From JAGLHV01 sp023132075 [NCBI: bacterium] (GTDB lineage Bacteria; CBDUZB01; JAGLHV01): 7,288 bases of DNA. The notes below the pieces were generated by a model that was not told the DNA's origin, made no database searches, and saw only the letters and a program-made list of their open reading frames with translations. The first letter of the stretch is position 1; each line of letters begins with the position of its first letter. Made by a program: the position numbers and the translations under genes. The stretch spans positions 1 to 7,288 of the forward strand of contig JAGLYT010000078.1 of assembly GCA_023132075.1 (NCBI GenBank). The letters run 5' to 3'. Shown piece after piece: positions 1,871 to 6,561 of the stretch.

Positions 1871-2731
1871 ATGCTGATAAAAGGACAAACACAAACTGTA
1901 GGTATTTTCGGGTTTCCGGTTAAACATTCTTTTTCTCCTCCGATGCACAATGCTGCTTTTGAGAAATTGGGGTTGGATTTTGTATATTTACCTTTTTGTG
2001 TTCAGCCTGATGATTTACCGGAGGCAGTTAAAGCGATAAAGGCATTATCTATAATCGGTGTTAATATTACCGTTCCCCATAAGCAGAAGGTTATTGAATT
2101 TCTGGATAAAATTGACCCGGTAGCGGAGATGATTGGTGCGGTAAACACTATTCATAATCAGCAGGGAAAATTAGTAGGATACAATACCGATGGAACGGGG
2201 TTTATTAATTCTCTGAAAGAGGAAGGACAATTTAAGCCGTTGGGAAAGTCAGCTTTTTTAATAGGAGCAGGGGGGGCAGGCCATGCTTTAGCTCTTATGC
2301 TGGCTAAAGAAGGAATAAAAAAACTGTACCTTAGTGATGTAATAGGAGAAAAAAGTCAGGTTTTGTTTAATCGCATAAAAAAGTATTTTAATACTTGTTC
2401 AGTAGAAATTGTTGATTTTAAAGAAGAATGTTTTTCCGATAAAATAGCGGAGGTGGATATTCTTTTAAATGCAACGCCAATGGGTATGCATGAGGGTGAT
2501 TCCTCCGTGGTCAAAGAGAATAATTTAAGAAAAGACTTATTTGTTTACGATGTGGTTTATAATCGGGAAACAGCTTTAATCAAATCGGCAAAACAAAAAG
2601 GCGCAAAAACACTGGGAGGGCTGGGTATGCTCTTGAATCAGGGTGCCCTTGCCTTTAAAATATGGACAGGTGAAGATGCACCCAAAGAACTAATGAAAGA
2701 AATCCTGCAAAAACAAATCAATATTAGATAA
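1871..2731 (+). CDS. aroE: shikimate dehydrogenase
   Basis: This enzyme reduces 3-dehydroshikimate to shikimate in the cytoplasm. The 286-residue protein has the full family layout. The substrate domain shows GFPVKHSFSP with Ser20 and Ser22, NITVPHK (65-71) with the catalytic Lys71, GAVNTI (89-94), and NTDG (105-108) with catalytic Asp107. The Rossmann domain starts with LIGAGGAG (130-137), followed by NATPMGM (200-206) and the C-terminal GGLGMLLNQGALAF with Gln257. At the end of the second Rossmann strand, where NADP-dependent AroE proteins usually carry Asn-Arg-Thr, this protein has Asp156-Val-Ile. That removes the arginine that contacts the NADP phosphate, so NAD(H) use or dual specificity is possible (inference). 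The start is supported by the AAGGTGA SD. The gene is separated from the other aro genes by an accessory island of about 2.7 kb. Confidence 0.96.
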   Translation: MLIKGQTQTVGIFGFPVKHSFSPPMHNAAFEKLGLDFVYLPFCVQPDDLPEAVKAIKALSIIGVNITVPHKQKVIEFLDKIDPVAEMIGAVNTIHNQQGKLVGYNTDGTGFINSLKEEGQFKPLGKSAFLIGAGGAGHALALMLAKEGIKKLYLSDVIGEKSQVLFNRIKKYFNTCSVEIVDFKEECFSDKIAEVDILLNATPMGMHEGDSSVVKENNLRKDLFVYDVVYNRETALIKSAKQKGAKTLGGLGMLLNQGALAFKIWTGEDAPKELMKEILQKQINIR

Positions 2732-2827
2732 GAGATGGATTAGCTTTGTTTGGCAATAGCCTCAATCCGCATTAAAATTCTAATTTCCCCTTTCAATGAC
2801 TACTTTCCTTAAAAATAATTTTAAAAG

Positions 2828-2848
2828 TTTTCATTGACAATGAGAACT
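2828..2848 (+). repeat. operator-like dyad, copy 1, over the -35 box
   Basis: The core is a perfect palindrome, TCATTG-A-CAATGA (2831-2843). With flanks, GTTTTCATTG faces CAATGAGAAC with a single mismatch. The same 21-bp motif recurs 33 bp downstream. The -35 hexamer TTGACA (2834-2839) lies wholly inside this copy, so a bound protein would block RNA polymerase. A further CAATGA half-site occurs at 2794-2799. Confidence 0.6.
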
Positions 2849-2862
2849 TAATATGTTATCTT
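2834..2862 (+). promoter_or_regulatory. sigma-70-type promoter of the ATPase gene
   Basis: A consensus -35 TTGACA (2834-2839) is followed, after a 17-nt spacer, by TATCTT (2857-2862), which matches the -10 consensus at four of six positions. The predicted start of transcription is near 2869, inside the second dyad repeat and about 27 nt before the ATPase ATG. This is the clearest promoter in the window. It suggests that the ATPase is transcribed separately from the upstream aro genes. Confidence 0.6.
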
Positions 2863-2881
2863 TTCATTAGCAATGAGAACT
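2861..2881 (+). repeat. operator-like dyad, copy 2, over the predicted transcription start
   Basis: This copy matches the repeat at 2828-2848 at 19 of 21 positions; the only differences are the two central bases (GA in copy 1, AG here). The dyad TCATT-AGC-AATGA is centred at 2870, exactly 33 bp from the first centre at 2837. That is about three helical turns, so two dimers would sit on the same face of DNA. The regulator is not identified. Confidence 0.6.
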
Positions 2882-2896
2882 ATTTAAGGAATAAAA

Positions 2897-4168
2897 ATGA
2901 ATAAATCATTATTGAAAGAAGTTATTTTAGAACAAAAAAACATTATAGATGACATAGATATTGGCATATCAAGAGAAAGTCTTTCTCAGATAGAAAAATA
3001 TTTGAAATTGCCTCATAGTATAATTGTTTCAGGAATCAGGCGTTCAGGAAAATCTACTTTGATGTCTCAAATTATAAAAAAGTTTTACGGGAAAAACGCA
3101 GTAAATTATCTAAATTTTGAAGATGAACGGTTAATTAATTTTGAACTGGCTGATTTTAATAAATTATACGAATTATTTATAGAACTTTTCGGAGAAAAGA
3201 AAATTTTCTTTTTTGATGAAATCCAGAATGTGCAAAACTGGGAAGCGTTTGTAAGAAGGATGCAGGATAGAAAGTGTAAATTTTTTATTACCGGTTCTAA
3301 TGCTTCTCTCCTGAGTAAAGAATTAGGGACAAAATTGACCGGGCGCTCAGTGACTGTAGAACTTTTTCCGTTTTCTTTCAAAGAGTTTCTTTCTTTTAAA
3401 GGGTACAAGTTTGTGCGAAATAATTTGCTTTTAACTCAGGAGAGGGGGGAAATCAAAAAATATTTTAATGAGTATATAAGAAAAGGAAGTATGCCTGAAT
3501 ATTTAAAATATAAAGATACAATTGTTTTGAAAAAGGTTTACGAAGATATTTTATATCGGGATATTGTTGCTCGTTATGAAATCAAAGAGATAAAAATATT
3601 AAGAGAATTAAGTTTGTATCTTTTGAGTAATGTCGGGAATTTGTTTTCCTATAATAAGTTGAAATCATTTTTTAAATTGGGAAGCATGAATACAATCAAA
3701 AGTTACATTGGATATCTTGAAGATTCTTTTCTTTTTTTTACAGTAAAGGGTTTTTCTTCTTCTTTGAAGAAACAAATGGTTAGTCCTCAAAAAATCTATT
3801 GTATTGATAACGGATTAATTAATACTATAGCTTTCCGATTTTCTAAGGATAAAGGGAAGTTTTTGGAAAATTTGGTTTTTGGTGAGCTTAAACGAAGAGG
3901 AAAAGAGGTTTATTATTACAAAACAAAAAACAATTTGGAAGTGGATTTTTTGATAAAGGAAGGGATAAAAATTGATACATTAATACAAGTGACTCAAACG
4001 TTATCCGGTAATAAAGTCCGGGAGAGAGAAATAAAAGCACTTGTTTTAGCAATGGATGAACTAAAGTTAAAGAAAGGACTTATCCTTACAGAAGATGAAG
4101 AGGAAGAAATAAAAGTAAAAAATAAGACAATAACCGTAATACCTGTTTATAAATGGCTTTTGATTTAA
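2897..4168 (+). CDS. AAA ATPase with C-terminal DUF4143-type domain
   Basis: The protein has 423 residues, typical for this large family of P-loop ATPases (AAA_14 plus DUF4143), whose cellular role is not established. The N-terminal ATPase has Walker A GIRRSGKST (46-54) and Walker B KIFFFDEIQ (102-110, Asp107-Glu108). It also has a sensor-1-like ITGSN (131-135) and the family signature GRSVTVELFPFSFKEF (149-164). A linker holds GSMPEY (197-202). The C-terminal half contains a winged-helix-like stretch (about 245-280) and then a PD-(D/E)XK-like fold signature: LENLVFGEL (323-331), EVDFLI (348-353) and LIQVTQ (362-367). The last replaces the ExK of active nucleases, so cleavage is doubtful. An SD (AAGGA, 2886-2890) lies 6 nt before the ATG. 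The gene has its own promoter and paired operators and lies inside the aro cluster. It may be mobile or defence-related (inference). Confidence 0.9.
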   Translation: MNKSLLKEVILEQKNIIDDIDIGISRESLSQIEKYLKLPHSIIVSGIRRSGKSTLMSQIIKKFYGKNAVNYLNFEDERLINFELADFNKLYELFIELFGEKKIFFFDEIQNVQNWEAFVRRMQDRKCKFFITGSNASLLSKELGTKLTGRSVTVELFPFSFKEFLSFKGYKFVRNNLLLTQERGEIKKYFNEYIRKGSMPEYLKYKDTIVLKKVYEDILYRDIVARYEIKEIKILRELSLYLLSNVGNLFSYNKLKSFFKLGSMNTIKSYIGYLEDSFLFFTVKGFSSSLKKQMVSPQKIYCIDNGLINTIAFRFSKDKGKFLENLVFGELKRRGKEVYYYKTKNNLEVDFLIKEGIKIDTLIQVTQTLSGNKVREREIKALVLAMDELKLKKGLILTEDEEEEIKVKNKTITVIPVYKWLLI

Positions 4169-4451
4169 ATAGAAATAACGACCGGTTTTTGACTAAAGAA
4201 CAAACTTGACATGGTTAGTATTCGAGAGTTTCTTTAATATAATAAAAAATATGAGTTGAATTAGATGAGAATTAGCTAAATATTTGATGAAAAAATCTAA
4301 AAATAAAAACAGGTTTTAGATAAAGCGATAAAGAAGATAAAAAAATAAAGTTTTTACCTTTATGAAAATGGCTTTTGGAGTAAAATAGAAAACGGAAAAA
4401 ACTAATTGCAAAGGGTATTTTAGAATTATTATATACGGTGTAAATAATATC

Positions 4452-4480
4452 TTGATTTTGTGGGAGAAATTTCATAAGAT
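4452..4480 (+). promoter_or_regulatory. possible promoter of the HEPN/MNT pair
   Basis: TTGATT (4452-4457) and TAAGAT (4475-4480) each match the sigma-70 consensus at four of six positions with a 17-nt spacer. This would start transcription about 55 nt before the antitoxin gene. In such AT-rich DNA a match of this quality can arise by chance. Confidence 0.25.
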
Positions 4481-4514
4481 ATTGTTAAGAGGATAAAACT
4501 CCTAAAAATTACAT

Positions 4515-4530
4515 ATATGATAATATGATA
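4515..4530 (+). repeat. tandem octamer ATATGATA x2 before the antitoxin SD
   Basis: Two perfect, directly adjacent copies of ATATGATA end immediately before the AAGGGAAG SD of the nucleotidyltransferase gene. The repeat lies in the leader, so it could be a binding site for autoregulation or simply a slippage-prone microsatellite. Confidence 0.4.
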
Positions 4531-4541
4531 AAGGGAAGATT

Positions 4542-4835
4542 ATGAAAAACCTTAGTGAAATAAAAAAAATTCTTGAGGAAAATAAGAAATTCTTGAGGGA
4601 GAAGTATGGAGTAAAAGGTATGGGAATATTTGGTTCATATTTAAGGTCGGAGGCAAAAGAAAGTAGTGATTTAGATATACTCGTGGAATTTGAAAAAAGT
4701 ATAGGGTTGTTAACGTTTGTAGAATTAGAAAATTACTTGAGTAATATTTTAGGCATCAAGGTTGATCTTGTAATGAAAGGAGTTTTAAAACCACGGATAG
4801 GGAAGCATATCCTCAAGGAGGTCGTTTATTTATGA
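4542..4835 (+). CDS. mntA: MNT-family nucleotidyltransferase, MntA-type antitoxin
   Basis: This is a 97-residue minimal nucleotidyltransferase. The fold signature is intact: FGSYLRSEAKESSDLDIL has Gly31-Ser32 followed by the Asp43-x-Asp45 metal pair, and a third acidic residue, Asp75, lies in KVDLV. In studied HEPN/MNT systems the MNT protein neutralises its HEPN partner by transferring AMP units to a tyrosine near the HEPN active site. Intact catalytic residues suggest the same mechanism here (inference). A modest SD (AGGGAAG, 4532-4538) lies just 3 nt before the ATG. The stop codon overlaps the toxin start by 4 nt (ATGA), which couples the two genes. Length and gene order, with antitoxin first, are usual for the family. 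The alternative, an MNT protein with another substrate, is less likely given the partner. Confidence 0.88.
   Translation: MKNLSEIKKILEENKKFLREKYGVKGMGIFGSYLRSEAKESSDLDILVEFEKSIGLLTFVELENYLSNILGIKVDLVMKGVLKPRIGKHILKEVVYL
4815..4821 (+). promoter_or_regulatory. strong Shine-Dalgarno of the HEPN toxin gene
   Basis: AAGGAGG is a near-perfect anti-SD match, 10 nt before the HEPN ATG at 4832 and inside the antitoxin coding region. It is clearly stronger than the antitoxin's own SD, although its spacing is a little long. Toxin translation therefore may not depend on coupling alone. Confidence 0.65.
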
Positions 4836-5179
4836 AAAGGGAGTATGGTGATTATATTGAAGATATCCTGGATGCTATGAATAAAGTAAGCAAATTTACG
4901 GAGAATATGAATTTCGATGAATTTAGTAAAGATGATAAAACTGTCTTTGCAGTTGTAAGAGGTTTAGAGATTATCGGCGAAGCGGTTAAGAATATTCCGG
5001 AAGAAATAGAGAAAAAATATCCGGAAATTCCCTGGAAAAATATTGCAGGGATGAGAAACAAACTAATCCATGAGTATTTAGGTGTTAAATTAGAGATTGT
5101 TTGGGACACGGTGAAAAAAGAAATTCCGGAAATCAAGCCTGAATTTCAAAAAATAATGGAAGATTTTAAGGAAGTTTGA
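4832..5179 (+). CDS. hepT: HEPN-domain (DUF86) ribonuclease, HepT-type toxin
   Basis: This is a 115-residue, mostly helical protein of the DUF86/HEPN family. The N-terminal region (DYIEDILDAMNKVSKFTE, 7-24) and RGLEIIGEAVKNIPEEI (43-59) match the family pattern. The diagnostic RX4HXY motif is RNKLIHEY (75-82): Arg75 and His80 form the RNase site and Tyr82 is the expected AMP-acceptor. IPWKNIAGMRNKL just before and at the motif is also typical. In characterised HepT/MntA systems the toxin cleaves RNA (tRNA in some cases) until the tyrosine is modified by MntA. All three key residues are present, so the toxin looks active. It is the second gene of a coupled pair. Only 6 nt after its stop codon begins the composite palindromic element at 5186. 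Confidence 0.9.
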   Translation: MKREYGDYIEDILDAMNKVSKFTENMNFDEFSKDDKTVFAVVRGLEIIGEAVKNIPEEIEKKYPEIPWKNIAGMRNKLIHEYLGVKLEIVWDTVKKEIPEIKPEFQKIMEDFKEV

Positions 5180-5193
5180 GGAAAAGACTGTAT

Positions 5194-5208
5194 CATAAAA
5201 TTTTTATG
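5194..5208 (+). repeat. perfect AT palindrome after hepT
   Basis: CATAAAA and TTTTATG form a perfect 7-bp inverted repeat around one central T. It overlaps the end of the left terminal repeat. The stem is A/T only, so it is unlikely to act as an efficient terminator on its own. Confidence 0.4.
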
Positions 5209-5210
5209 TG

Positions 5211-5233
5211 GTAGCCGCAACCTTTAGGTTGCG
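5211..5233 (+). repeat. left REP-like hairpin with GTAG foot
   Basis: GTAGC is followed by a perfect 7-bp stem, CGCAACC (5216-5222) and GGTTGCG (5227-5233), around the loop TTTA. No T-run follows, so a classical Rho-independent terminator is not supported, though the hairpin could protect the 3' end of the toxin transcript. Confidence 0.65.
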
Positions 5234-5250
5234 TTATCGTCGTAAATTTT

Positions 5251-5294
5251 CCACAGGCTTCCTCCACAGGCGGACAAGAAAGCCCTGCGACTAC
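5251..5294 (-). repeat. right REP-like hairpin with GTAG foot, opposite strand
   Basis: CAGGCTT (5254-5260) pairs with AAGCCCTG (5280-5287) with one bulged C, and the GTAG foot is read from 5294 on the minus strand. The left arm and loop contain two direct copies of CCACAGGC (5251-5258 and 5264-5271). It faces the left hairpin but is less regular, and may have decayed. Confidence 0.5.
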
Positions 5295-5411
5295 TAAAAA
5301 AAGGATTACGATACAGTCGATTAATTAAGGGAATGACTCGCTTTAAAGATTGGCGGGGAAGCAGGGTGTGTTTTAATCTATTTTGCAGAAGGCTTAAAAC
5401 TAAATAATTAC

Positions 5412-5416
5412 GGAGG
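5412..5416 (+). promoter_or_regulatory. Shine-Dalgarno of aroC
   Basis: GGAGG lies 5 nt before the ATG at 5422. It is the only good SD in the 5319-5421 gap and supports translation of aroC independently of the upstream accessory genes. Confidence 0.7.
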
Positions 5417-5421
5417 AAAAA

Positions 5422-6561
5422 ATGTTAAGATATCTTACCTCGGGTGAATCACACGGGAAGTGTTTAGTTGCTATTCTGGAAGGGTTTCCCTCCGGATTAA
5501 AGATAGAGGGAAAGGTTATAGATAAGGAATTATTACGCAGACAGCTGGGTTATGGCCGGGGAGGGAGGATGCAGATAGAAAAAGATAAAGCAGAAATTCT
5601 TTCCGGATTATATAGAGGAAAAACTACGGGAGCTCCTCTTTGTATAATGGTTGCCAATAAAGACTGGAAGGGATGGGACAAGATGCCTTCCCTTACTAAA
5701 CCCAGGCCGGGTCATGCCGATTTATCCGGAATGTTTAAATATAACTTTGAGGACTTAAGGCCGGTTTTAGAAAGAGCCAGTGCCAGAGAGACAGCGGTAA
5801 GGGTAGGAGTGGGGGCGGTGGCTAAAAGATTATTAGCTGAATTTGATATTAAAATTTACAGCCGTACGGTGCAAATCGGTAGTGTTAAAGATGAGTCTGT
5901 TTACAATCCGGCAAAAGGAAAAAGTATTGGAATAAAAGAAACACCCCTGCGTTGTATAGACAAAAATATTGAAAAGAAGATGATTGCTTTAATTGACCGG
6001 GCTAAAGAAAAGAAAGATAGCCTGGGAGGGGTATTTGAAGTTGGTGTTCTTAATTTGCCGGTAGGATTGGGGAGTTTTGTTCATTGGGATGCCCGATTGG
6101 ATGCCCGTCTGGCTTTTGCTTTAATGAGTATTCAGGCAATTAAGGGTGTAGAGATAGGGTTAGGCTTTGATTGTGCCCGGCGGTTTGGTTCCGAGGTACA
6201 TGATGAAATCTTTTATGAAAAAAAACAGGGATTTTACCGCAAGACTAATAATGCCGGCGGATTGGAAGGTGGGATGTCTAACGGAGAGACGATTGTTTTG
6301 AAGGCGGCTATGAAACCGATTGCTACCCTGGGTAAACCTTTACGGTCGGTAGATATAAAATCCAAGAAACCATATAAAGCTTGCGTAGAGAGAGCGGATG
6401 TTTGTGCTGTTCCGGCTGCCGGTGTAGTGGGGGAAACAGTTGTGGCTTTTGAGGTTGCCCGGGCGTTAAAGGAAAAATTCGGCGGGGATAGTTTAGCAGA
6501 GATGAAGGAAAATTTTTCTAATTATAAAAAGTATTTAAAAACGGGGAATAAGAAAAAATGA
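5422..6561 (+). CDS. aroC: chorismate synthase
   Basis: This enzyme converts 5-enolpyruvylshikimate-3-phosphate to chorismate with reduced FMN as cofactor, the last common step of aromatic synthesis. The protein has 379 residues, normal for the bacterial type. Motifs in order: GESHG (8-12) with catalytic His11, RRQLGYGRGGRM (39-50), RPGHADLSG (95-103) with His98, and ERASARET (117-124). Next are the FMN-binding region GGLEGGMSNGE (279-289) with KPIATL (298-303), and RADVCAVPAAG (324-334) with the conserved Asp326. No flavin reductase domain is attached, so reduced FMN must come from elsewhere. The start is set by GGAGG (5412-5416), 5 nt before the ATG. It overlaps aroK by 4 nt, so the two are coupled. 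No confident promoter was found in the 103 bp after the palindromic element. Confidence 0.98.
   Translation: MLRYLTSGESHGKCLVAILEGFPSGLKIEGKVIDKELLRRQLGYGRGGRMQIEKDKAEILSGLYRGKTTGAPLCIMVANKDWKGWDKMPSLTKPRPGHADLSGMFKYNFEDLRPVLERASARETAVRVGVGAVAKRLLAEFDIKIYSRTVQIGSVKDESVYNPAKGKSIGIKETPLRCIDKNIEKKMIALIDRAKEKKDSLGGVFEVGVLNLPVGLGSFVHWDARLDARLAFALMSIQAIKGVEIGLGFDCARRFGSEVHDEIFYEKKQGFYRKTNNAGGLEGGMSNGETIVLKAAMKPIATLGKPLRSVDIKSKKPYKACVERADVCAVPAAGVVGETVVAFEVARALKEKFGGDSLAEMKENFSNYKKYLKTGNKKK

Follow-up and report, generated by a model that had tools for sequence, protein, structure and literature searches.

The subject of this analysis is a pair of dyad repeats that lies immediately upstream of a gene for an ATPase with AAA_14 and DUF4143 domains, in a 7,288-nucleotide stretch of DNA (the window) from contig JAGLYT010000078.1 of the bacterium JAGLHV01 sp023132075. 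The ATPase is encoded on the forward strand by an open reading frame (ORF) at 2897-4168, which starts with the ATG at 2897 and is preceded on the same strand by an apparent Shine-Dalgarno sequence, AAGGA, at 2886-2890. Its product matches the Pfam profile PF13173 (AAA_14) with 133.5 bits against a cut-off of 27, followed by PF13635 (DUF4143) with 94.1 against 28.1, a combination that we take to correspond to the label COG1373. The PADLOC profile of PDC-S01 matches residues 23-422 with an e-value of 1.4e-119.

Upstream of this gene, and on the same strand, the putative operator is present in two 21-bp copies, TTTTCATTGACAATGAGAACT at 2828-2848 (copy 1, dyad centre 2837) and TTTTCATTAGCAATGAGAACT at 2861-2881 (copy 2, dyad centre 2870), which are identical at 19 of 21 bases, differ at two central bases and are offset by 33 bp. 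All of this, together with a complete TTGACA hexamer inside copy 1 (2834-2839), had been noticed in an earlier inspection made without database searches (the sequence-only reading), and was recovered here. A scan with the 20-bp operator motif, allowing at most 2 mismatches, gave 3 matches in the window against a mean of 0.01 in 200 dinucleotide shuffles, none of which reached 3. The TTGACA resembles a -35 box and is separated by a 17-bp spacer from a forward-strand -10-like box, TATCTT, at 2857-2862, with a TG at 2854-2855; both boxes were called by consensus match. A consensus scan of 2600-5500 yielded 14 promoter-like sites against 12.3 expected, that is, no excess, and hence the match by itself is weak evidence for a promoter. 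This site is one of three scoring 10/12 and the sole one of the 14 with a TG. A promoter before the ATPase gene is thus plausible rather than proven, and by the consensus match the operator overlaps it; if the site is used, transcription would start at about 2869-2870, inside copy 2.

Eleven relatives of the window ATPase were identified by scanning genome contigs. The same dyad stands before the ATPase genes of loci L007 (96% protein identity), L008 (67%, labelled Patescibacteria) and L009 (65%, labelled Paceibacterota), which bears out the earlier view that the operators are built into the promoter region of the ATPase gene; lack of conservation before orthologues would, by that reading's own criterion, have refuted it. 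Copy 1 is conserved in all three; copy 2 is clear in L007 and L009 and degenerate in L008, where copy 1 is the better conserved one and the promoter carries a 31-bp palindrome in addition to the degenerate copy. A single copy of the dyad precedes L013 (64%), and the distant relatives L011 (47%) and L022 (38%) show, at the corresponding position, repeats of unrelated sequence that are likewise offset by 33 bp. The phylum of L008 differs from that of the window, the latter comprising 3 genomes and the former being a larger group from which genomes were drawn evenly. Viral relatives of the ATPase were not found by protein search; the motif pattern matched 41 viral contigs, and tblastn of the ATPase found no relative in the stretches fetched there. 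The sequence-only reading had also proposed an extra half-site, CAATGA, at 2794-2799. The hexamer is indeed present, but it is not conserved: it is missing from L007, stands 44 bp away from the corresponding half-site in copy 1, and is common in the window (8 occurrences of it or its complement, 3 of those within the operators), all of which point to a chance occurrence.

The recurrence of the 33-bp offset with unrelated repeat sequences was examined across the family. The region from -170 to +30 of each gene (-160 to +20 in a round of 81 genes) was searched for internal repeats by matching ungapped 18-base windows offset by 12-70 bp. The prediction of 33 bp was drawn from the first relatives, and most genes in the test were gathered afterwards: 90 of 126 matches were sampled in one search and 40 + 40 more in further sampled searches. 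In all, 288 loci were scanned; the total of 219 excludes those with no recognisable Walker A/B motif or with less than 100 bp of upstream DNA, along with duplicates. The heuristic that assigned start codons sometimes errs (L013, L259), and L008, with its dyad visible by eye, falls below 13/18 in the ungapped comparison.

At a threshold of at least 14/18 matches, 11 genes of the 81-gene round had repeats spaced by 32 bp and 10 by 33 bp, the mean for other spacings being 0.48; with 138 genes these numbers became 15 and 21 against 0.82, and with 219 AAA_14/DUF4143 genes 25 and 31, other spacings having a mean of 1.2 and a maximum of 5. The preference persisted when one random gene was taken from each of 78 clusters at 45% identity (8 at 32 bp and 15 at 33 bp against a mean of 0.53). 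At the lower threshold of at least 13/18, the phylum of L008 (Patescibacteria label; n=60) had 5 genes at 32 bp and 17 at 33 bp, and that of the archaeal L014 (Nanoarchaeota label; n=51) had 13 and 12, with a mean of 1.2 at other spacings. A pair at any spacing of 31-34 bp was present in 93 of 219 genes (42.5%) at the lower threshold and in 63 (28.8%) at the higher. Across the family these pairs lie near the start codon, with a median midpoint of -52 (63 genes). Perfect dyads with 8-bp arms occurred within -110 to -10 in 30.6% of the 219 genes, as against 5.3% of 657 shuffles, and the copies themselves were palindromic (at least 7/8) in 20% of 59 and 23% of 57 cases, as against 3% of 118 flanks. 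Two further arrangements were seen in individual genes. Upstream of the archaeal gene L227, two copies with 18 identical bases stand 31 bp apart and flank a TATA-like TTTAAATA, and in L224 and L226, both from Patescibacteria, a wider inverted arrangement, TTACA ... TGTAA, surrounds the promoter, perhaps as a second operator architecture recognised by eye.

Far-upstream DNA of the same genes contained such pairs in 14 of 207 cases at 13/18 or better and in 5 of 207 at 14/18 or better; for other ORFs the counts were 21 and 7 of 151. Four of those last 7 trace to an ATPase operator or gene (L160, L166, L281 and L181), leaving three. Among Fic genes (n=27) the numbers at 31, 32, 33 and 34 bp were 2, 0, 2 and 1 (at least 13/18), and ATPase_2 genes (n=10) had no pairs at these spacings. 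Thus, exceptions apart, the controls are near background, and the 32-33 bp spacing is strongly enriched in the AAA_14/DUF4143 family. As for the traced pairs, L160, L166 and L281 are divergent neighbours of ATPase genes and have the promoter region and operator in common with them, for which reason they may be co-regulated with the ATPase. L181, on the minus strand, is itself a family member (profile e-value 1e-102) with an odd Walker A motif, GLRRVGKNT, and its pair, ACATTCTATTATAATAGAATGT / ATATTCTAGTATAATAGAATAT, matches at 17/18 with a 32-bp spacing.

We then compared the operators of different genes, counting two as similar if at least 13 of 16 bases agreed and using equal-sized flanking stretches of the same gene pairs as controls. 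Operators were similar in 55% of 33 pairs with 45-55% protein identity and in 88% of 17 pairs with 55-75%, but in only 3-4% of pairs below 45%; for the flanks the corresponding values were 0%, 0% and 2%. A larger set gave the same gradation, with 9% similar operators at 40-45% identity, 39% at 45-50%, 71% at 50-60% and 89% at 60-80%. The motif is therefore private to each gene, usually kept above about 50% protein identity and unrelated below 45%, so that the operator is conserved with, and changes with, the encoded protein. Among paralogues of one genome, 62 pairs from 22 genomes mapped by hand, only 3 had operators in common, a frequency near background, and the other 59 were unrelated; the idea of the motif as a shared mark of all ATPase copies is thus not supported. 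One such pair, L094 and L077, is 62% identical in protein sequence and yet differs in operator (10 of 16).

The sequence-only reading had offered two meanings for the motif, a regulon or DNA recognised by the ATPase itself. The regulon is rejected. In the organism's own assembly (1.87 Mb, 86.7% complete) the 20-bp motif occurs nowhere outside the window with at most 1 mismatch, and at up to 3 mismatches the forward motif matches 12 times and its reversed control 19 times. A search of the genome with TCATTGNCAATGA at up to 1 mismatch gave 8 forward hits, of which two are those of the window, and its reversed control gave 4; all four that were examined, of the six outside the window, fall inside ORFs. 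The second meaning is strengthened, since the motif stays with its gene and diverges in step with it. We therefore regard it as probable that the ATPase represses its own gene by binding the dyads as operators, each gene possessing its own pair. A dimer of the ATPase would bind each dyad. The two copies are about three helical turns apart and face the same side of the helix, where a higher oligomer of the protein would bridge them. The bound ATPase would cover the -35 box and the start site and exclude RNA polymerase once sufficient protein had accumulated. In each member of the family the operator sequence would change together with its protein. Archaeal promoter geometry differs from that of bacteria; the family-wide enrichment and the same spacing in the archaeal set suggest that the 32-33 bp is set by the bound protein and would mirror its oligomer. 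Private operators would allow several such circuits to run in one genome without cross-talk, and control would move with the gene between phyla.

An AlphaFold2 (AF2) model of the window ATPase (mean predicted local distance difference test score, pLDDT, 93.3; predicted template modelling score, pTM, 0.91) has a nucleotide-binding domain, a winged helix and a C-terminal alpha/beta domain, all encoded on the forward strand. The AAA_14 nucleotide-binding domain corresponds to residues 41-165 (3017-3391), with the Walker A motif GIRRSGKST. The winged helix-turn-helix (wHTH), delineated by the model and by fold comparison, spans residues 232-302 (3590-3802), with helices at 232-244, 252-258 and 264-276. 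In VIA-align comparisons, residues 11-318 resemble the archaeal Walker ATPases and STAND/NLR proteins (2qen, Z 16.8; 2fna, Z 15.7; the plant NLR RPP1, 16.2; CED-4, 15.7), with which they share the nucleotide-binding domain and winged helix. The C-terminal sensor repeats of STAND/NLR proteins are absent, and residues 319-423 (3851-4165) form instead an alpha/beta domain resembling PD-(D/E)XK nucleases (Mrr_cat, 21.4 bits, just above the cut-off of 21). There was no PD-(D/E)XK chain among the matches listed in the fold comparison, and the C-terminal part was compared separately; that part alone (pLDDT 81) was closest to the McrBC structure 6hz4 chain N, which we take to be McrC, at an e-value of 8.5e-4, the sole match below 0.001. 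The catalytic lysine of the ExK motif is lacking in the window protein, which has QVT at residues 364-366 (3986-3994); among the relatives, 128 of 219 have ExK and 81 have QxC/T/S/A. Operator pairs accompany 54 of the 128 ExK proteins and 39 of the 91 others, rates so similar that possession of operators does not single out dead nucleases. On the model, either the wHTH or the restriction-enzyme-like domain could read DNA.

Several observations weigh against autorepression by the ATPase. Over half of the genes (126 of 219) have no detectable pair, with a background of 7-14%, and 31-34 bp is the top spacing in just 2 of 10 named plasmid genes. The signal is weak in the phylum of L017 (Peptostreptococcaceae/Bacillota label; n=30), with 5, 1 and 3 genes at 32, 33 and 34 bp (at least 13/18). 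Of 59 genes, 34% have a TTGACA-like hexamer (at least 5/6) in copy 1 and 22% have one in copy 2, the figure for flanks being 17%; the overlap of the pair with the -35 box is therefore not general. A set of 18 weak AAA matches had 1, 0, 3 and 1 pairs at 31-34 bp against a mean of 0.58 (at least 13/18) and, at 33 bp, 2 against 0.18 (at least 14/18), a small excess that is unexplained; the genes concerned (L355, L356, L360 and L361) did not match the ATPase family profile at an e-value of 1e-3. Above 75% protein identity there were 2 gene pairs, both with similar operators, and one of them had a similar flank too. As to the DNA-reading domain, a partial correlation points to residues 333-353 and 192-217, a matched comparison points to the wHTH, and the gene pairs behind both are not independent. 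Finally, to our knowledge the winged helix of NLR and CED-4 proteins is not a sequence reader.

The strongest competing explanation is that the dyads are bound by another protein, a transcription factor of the host, through which the ATPase gene would be repressed or activated. Dedicated repressors usually bind paired promoter dyads in this manner, RptR being an example (PMC12255303). Nevertheless, such a factor would be expected to give the paralogues of one genome one motif, contrary to what the same-genome pairs described above display; each ATPase clade has a motif of its own, which stays with the gene in different phyla, and the window's own genome reveals no other target. We consider this explanation unlikely. 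Less likely still is that the dyads mark the ends of a mobile gene cassette or serve for its recognition, or that the nuclease-like domain targets them, with the promoter overlap being secondary. The presence of the ATPase gene in different phyla, and of integrases or recombinases next to 4 of 9 plasmid copies, would suit a cassette, but a motif scan of the window found no operator copy 3' of the ATPase gene, and the position of the pair near the start codon fits promoters better than element ends. A search for aroE in the third genome of the genus, sought as a possible empty site, gave no match. That the repeats act in an RNA leader as a hairpin or attenuator is very improbable, for although copy 2 is self-complementary and would sit at the 5' end of the transcript, copy 1 holds the -35-like box and would stay untranscribed, yet L008 conserves it better than copy 2, and a spacing of about three helical turns suggests action at the level of DNA.

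AAA_14/DUF4143 ATPase-nuclease genes are widespread in bacteria and archaea and are thought to be part of anti-virus defence. Among the predicted defence systems of prokaryotes, PDC-S01 ranks fourth in frequency, and experimental validation is still pending for most such candidate systems, according to PMC12988326; the window protein belongs to this family and has the same architecture of ATPase and PD-(D/E)XK domains as is given there. Two of nine plasmids carry the gene in company that fits defence; a copy in Treponema saccharophilum lies between hsdR and a DNA methyltransferase gene, and one on an Arcobacter cloacae plasmid between cas3 and cas4. No pair at 31-34 bp was among the top spacings of TT_RS11170 of Thermus thermophilus HB27, which we take to be TT_P0211, a mapping that is not confirmed. 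The AAA_14/DUF4143 gene TT_P0211 is recorded in PMC4406477 with a 6.6-fold change in cells with a plasmid. A more speculative extension of autorepression, which we hold to be rather doubtful, is that PDC-S01 is a one-gene immune switch, in which an NLR-like ATPase with a nuclease-type domain would be parked as an oligomer on its private operator pair in the resting state, and loss of occupancy would both derepress the gene and free active protein. Occupancy might be lost, for instance, when an invader interferes with transcription or replication in the host or introduces DNA that competes for the protein. If this were so, the private specificity, the 32-33 bp geometry and the movement with the gene would let many paralogues guard independently in a small genome.

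Our literature search found no account of the regulation or an operator of the AAA_14/DUF4143/PDC-S01 family, subscription papers and preprints being largely outside its reach. Self-limiting defence genes are already known; the new element would be the ATPase as its own proposed binder. Autorepressed toxin-antitoxin operons and the controller (C) proteins of restriction-modification (RM) systems resemble the proposed circuit in that a defence-type gene limits itself at its own promoter (PMC12255303). In those systems a separate small protein binds, whereas the window has one gene in which the proposed binder is the effector. A Pfam scan of 6 window ORFs of at least 60 residues identified the ATPase, Radical_SAM, ApbE, shikimate dehydrogenase, NTP_transf_2 and a HepT-like protein, and neither a DNA-binding regulator nor a separate small HTH gene of the kind found beside the effector in RM controller systems. 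RptR controls an RM/DarTG2 island through promoter repeats and resembles the present case in having repeats in a defence-gene promoter and repression, the latter being proposed for the window; however, it is a separate small regulator with a common conserved TAGCTA site, according to PMC12255303, whereas each ATPase gene has its own motif. By eye, 2740-2900 contains no TAGCTA palindromes.

For a sizeable fraction of PDC-S01 members these results offer a candidate DNA target of defined sequence, and the 32-33 bp geometry would constrain the possible assembly of the protein. DNA binding by this uncharacterised ATPase family is now open to a simple gel-shift test, for which L094 and L077 are a ready pair. 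Elsewhere in the window, a nucleotidyltransferase/HepT pair at 4542-5179 resembles the type VII MntA-HepT toxin-antitoxin system and scores below the NCBIfam equivalog cut-offs; a nucleotidyltransferase and HEPN pair is named PDC-M05 in PMC12988326. Furthermore, an interspersed palindromic repeat, GTAGCCGCAACCTTTAGGTTGCG, is present at 5211-5233, with 3 exact copies and 1 copy with one mismatch in its own genome, where the reversed control has none, and a related copy of it lies upstream of the ATPase gene in L007.
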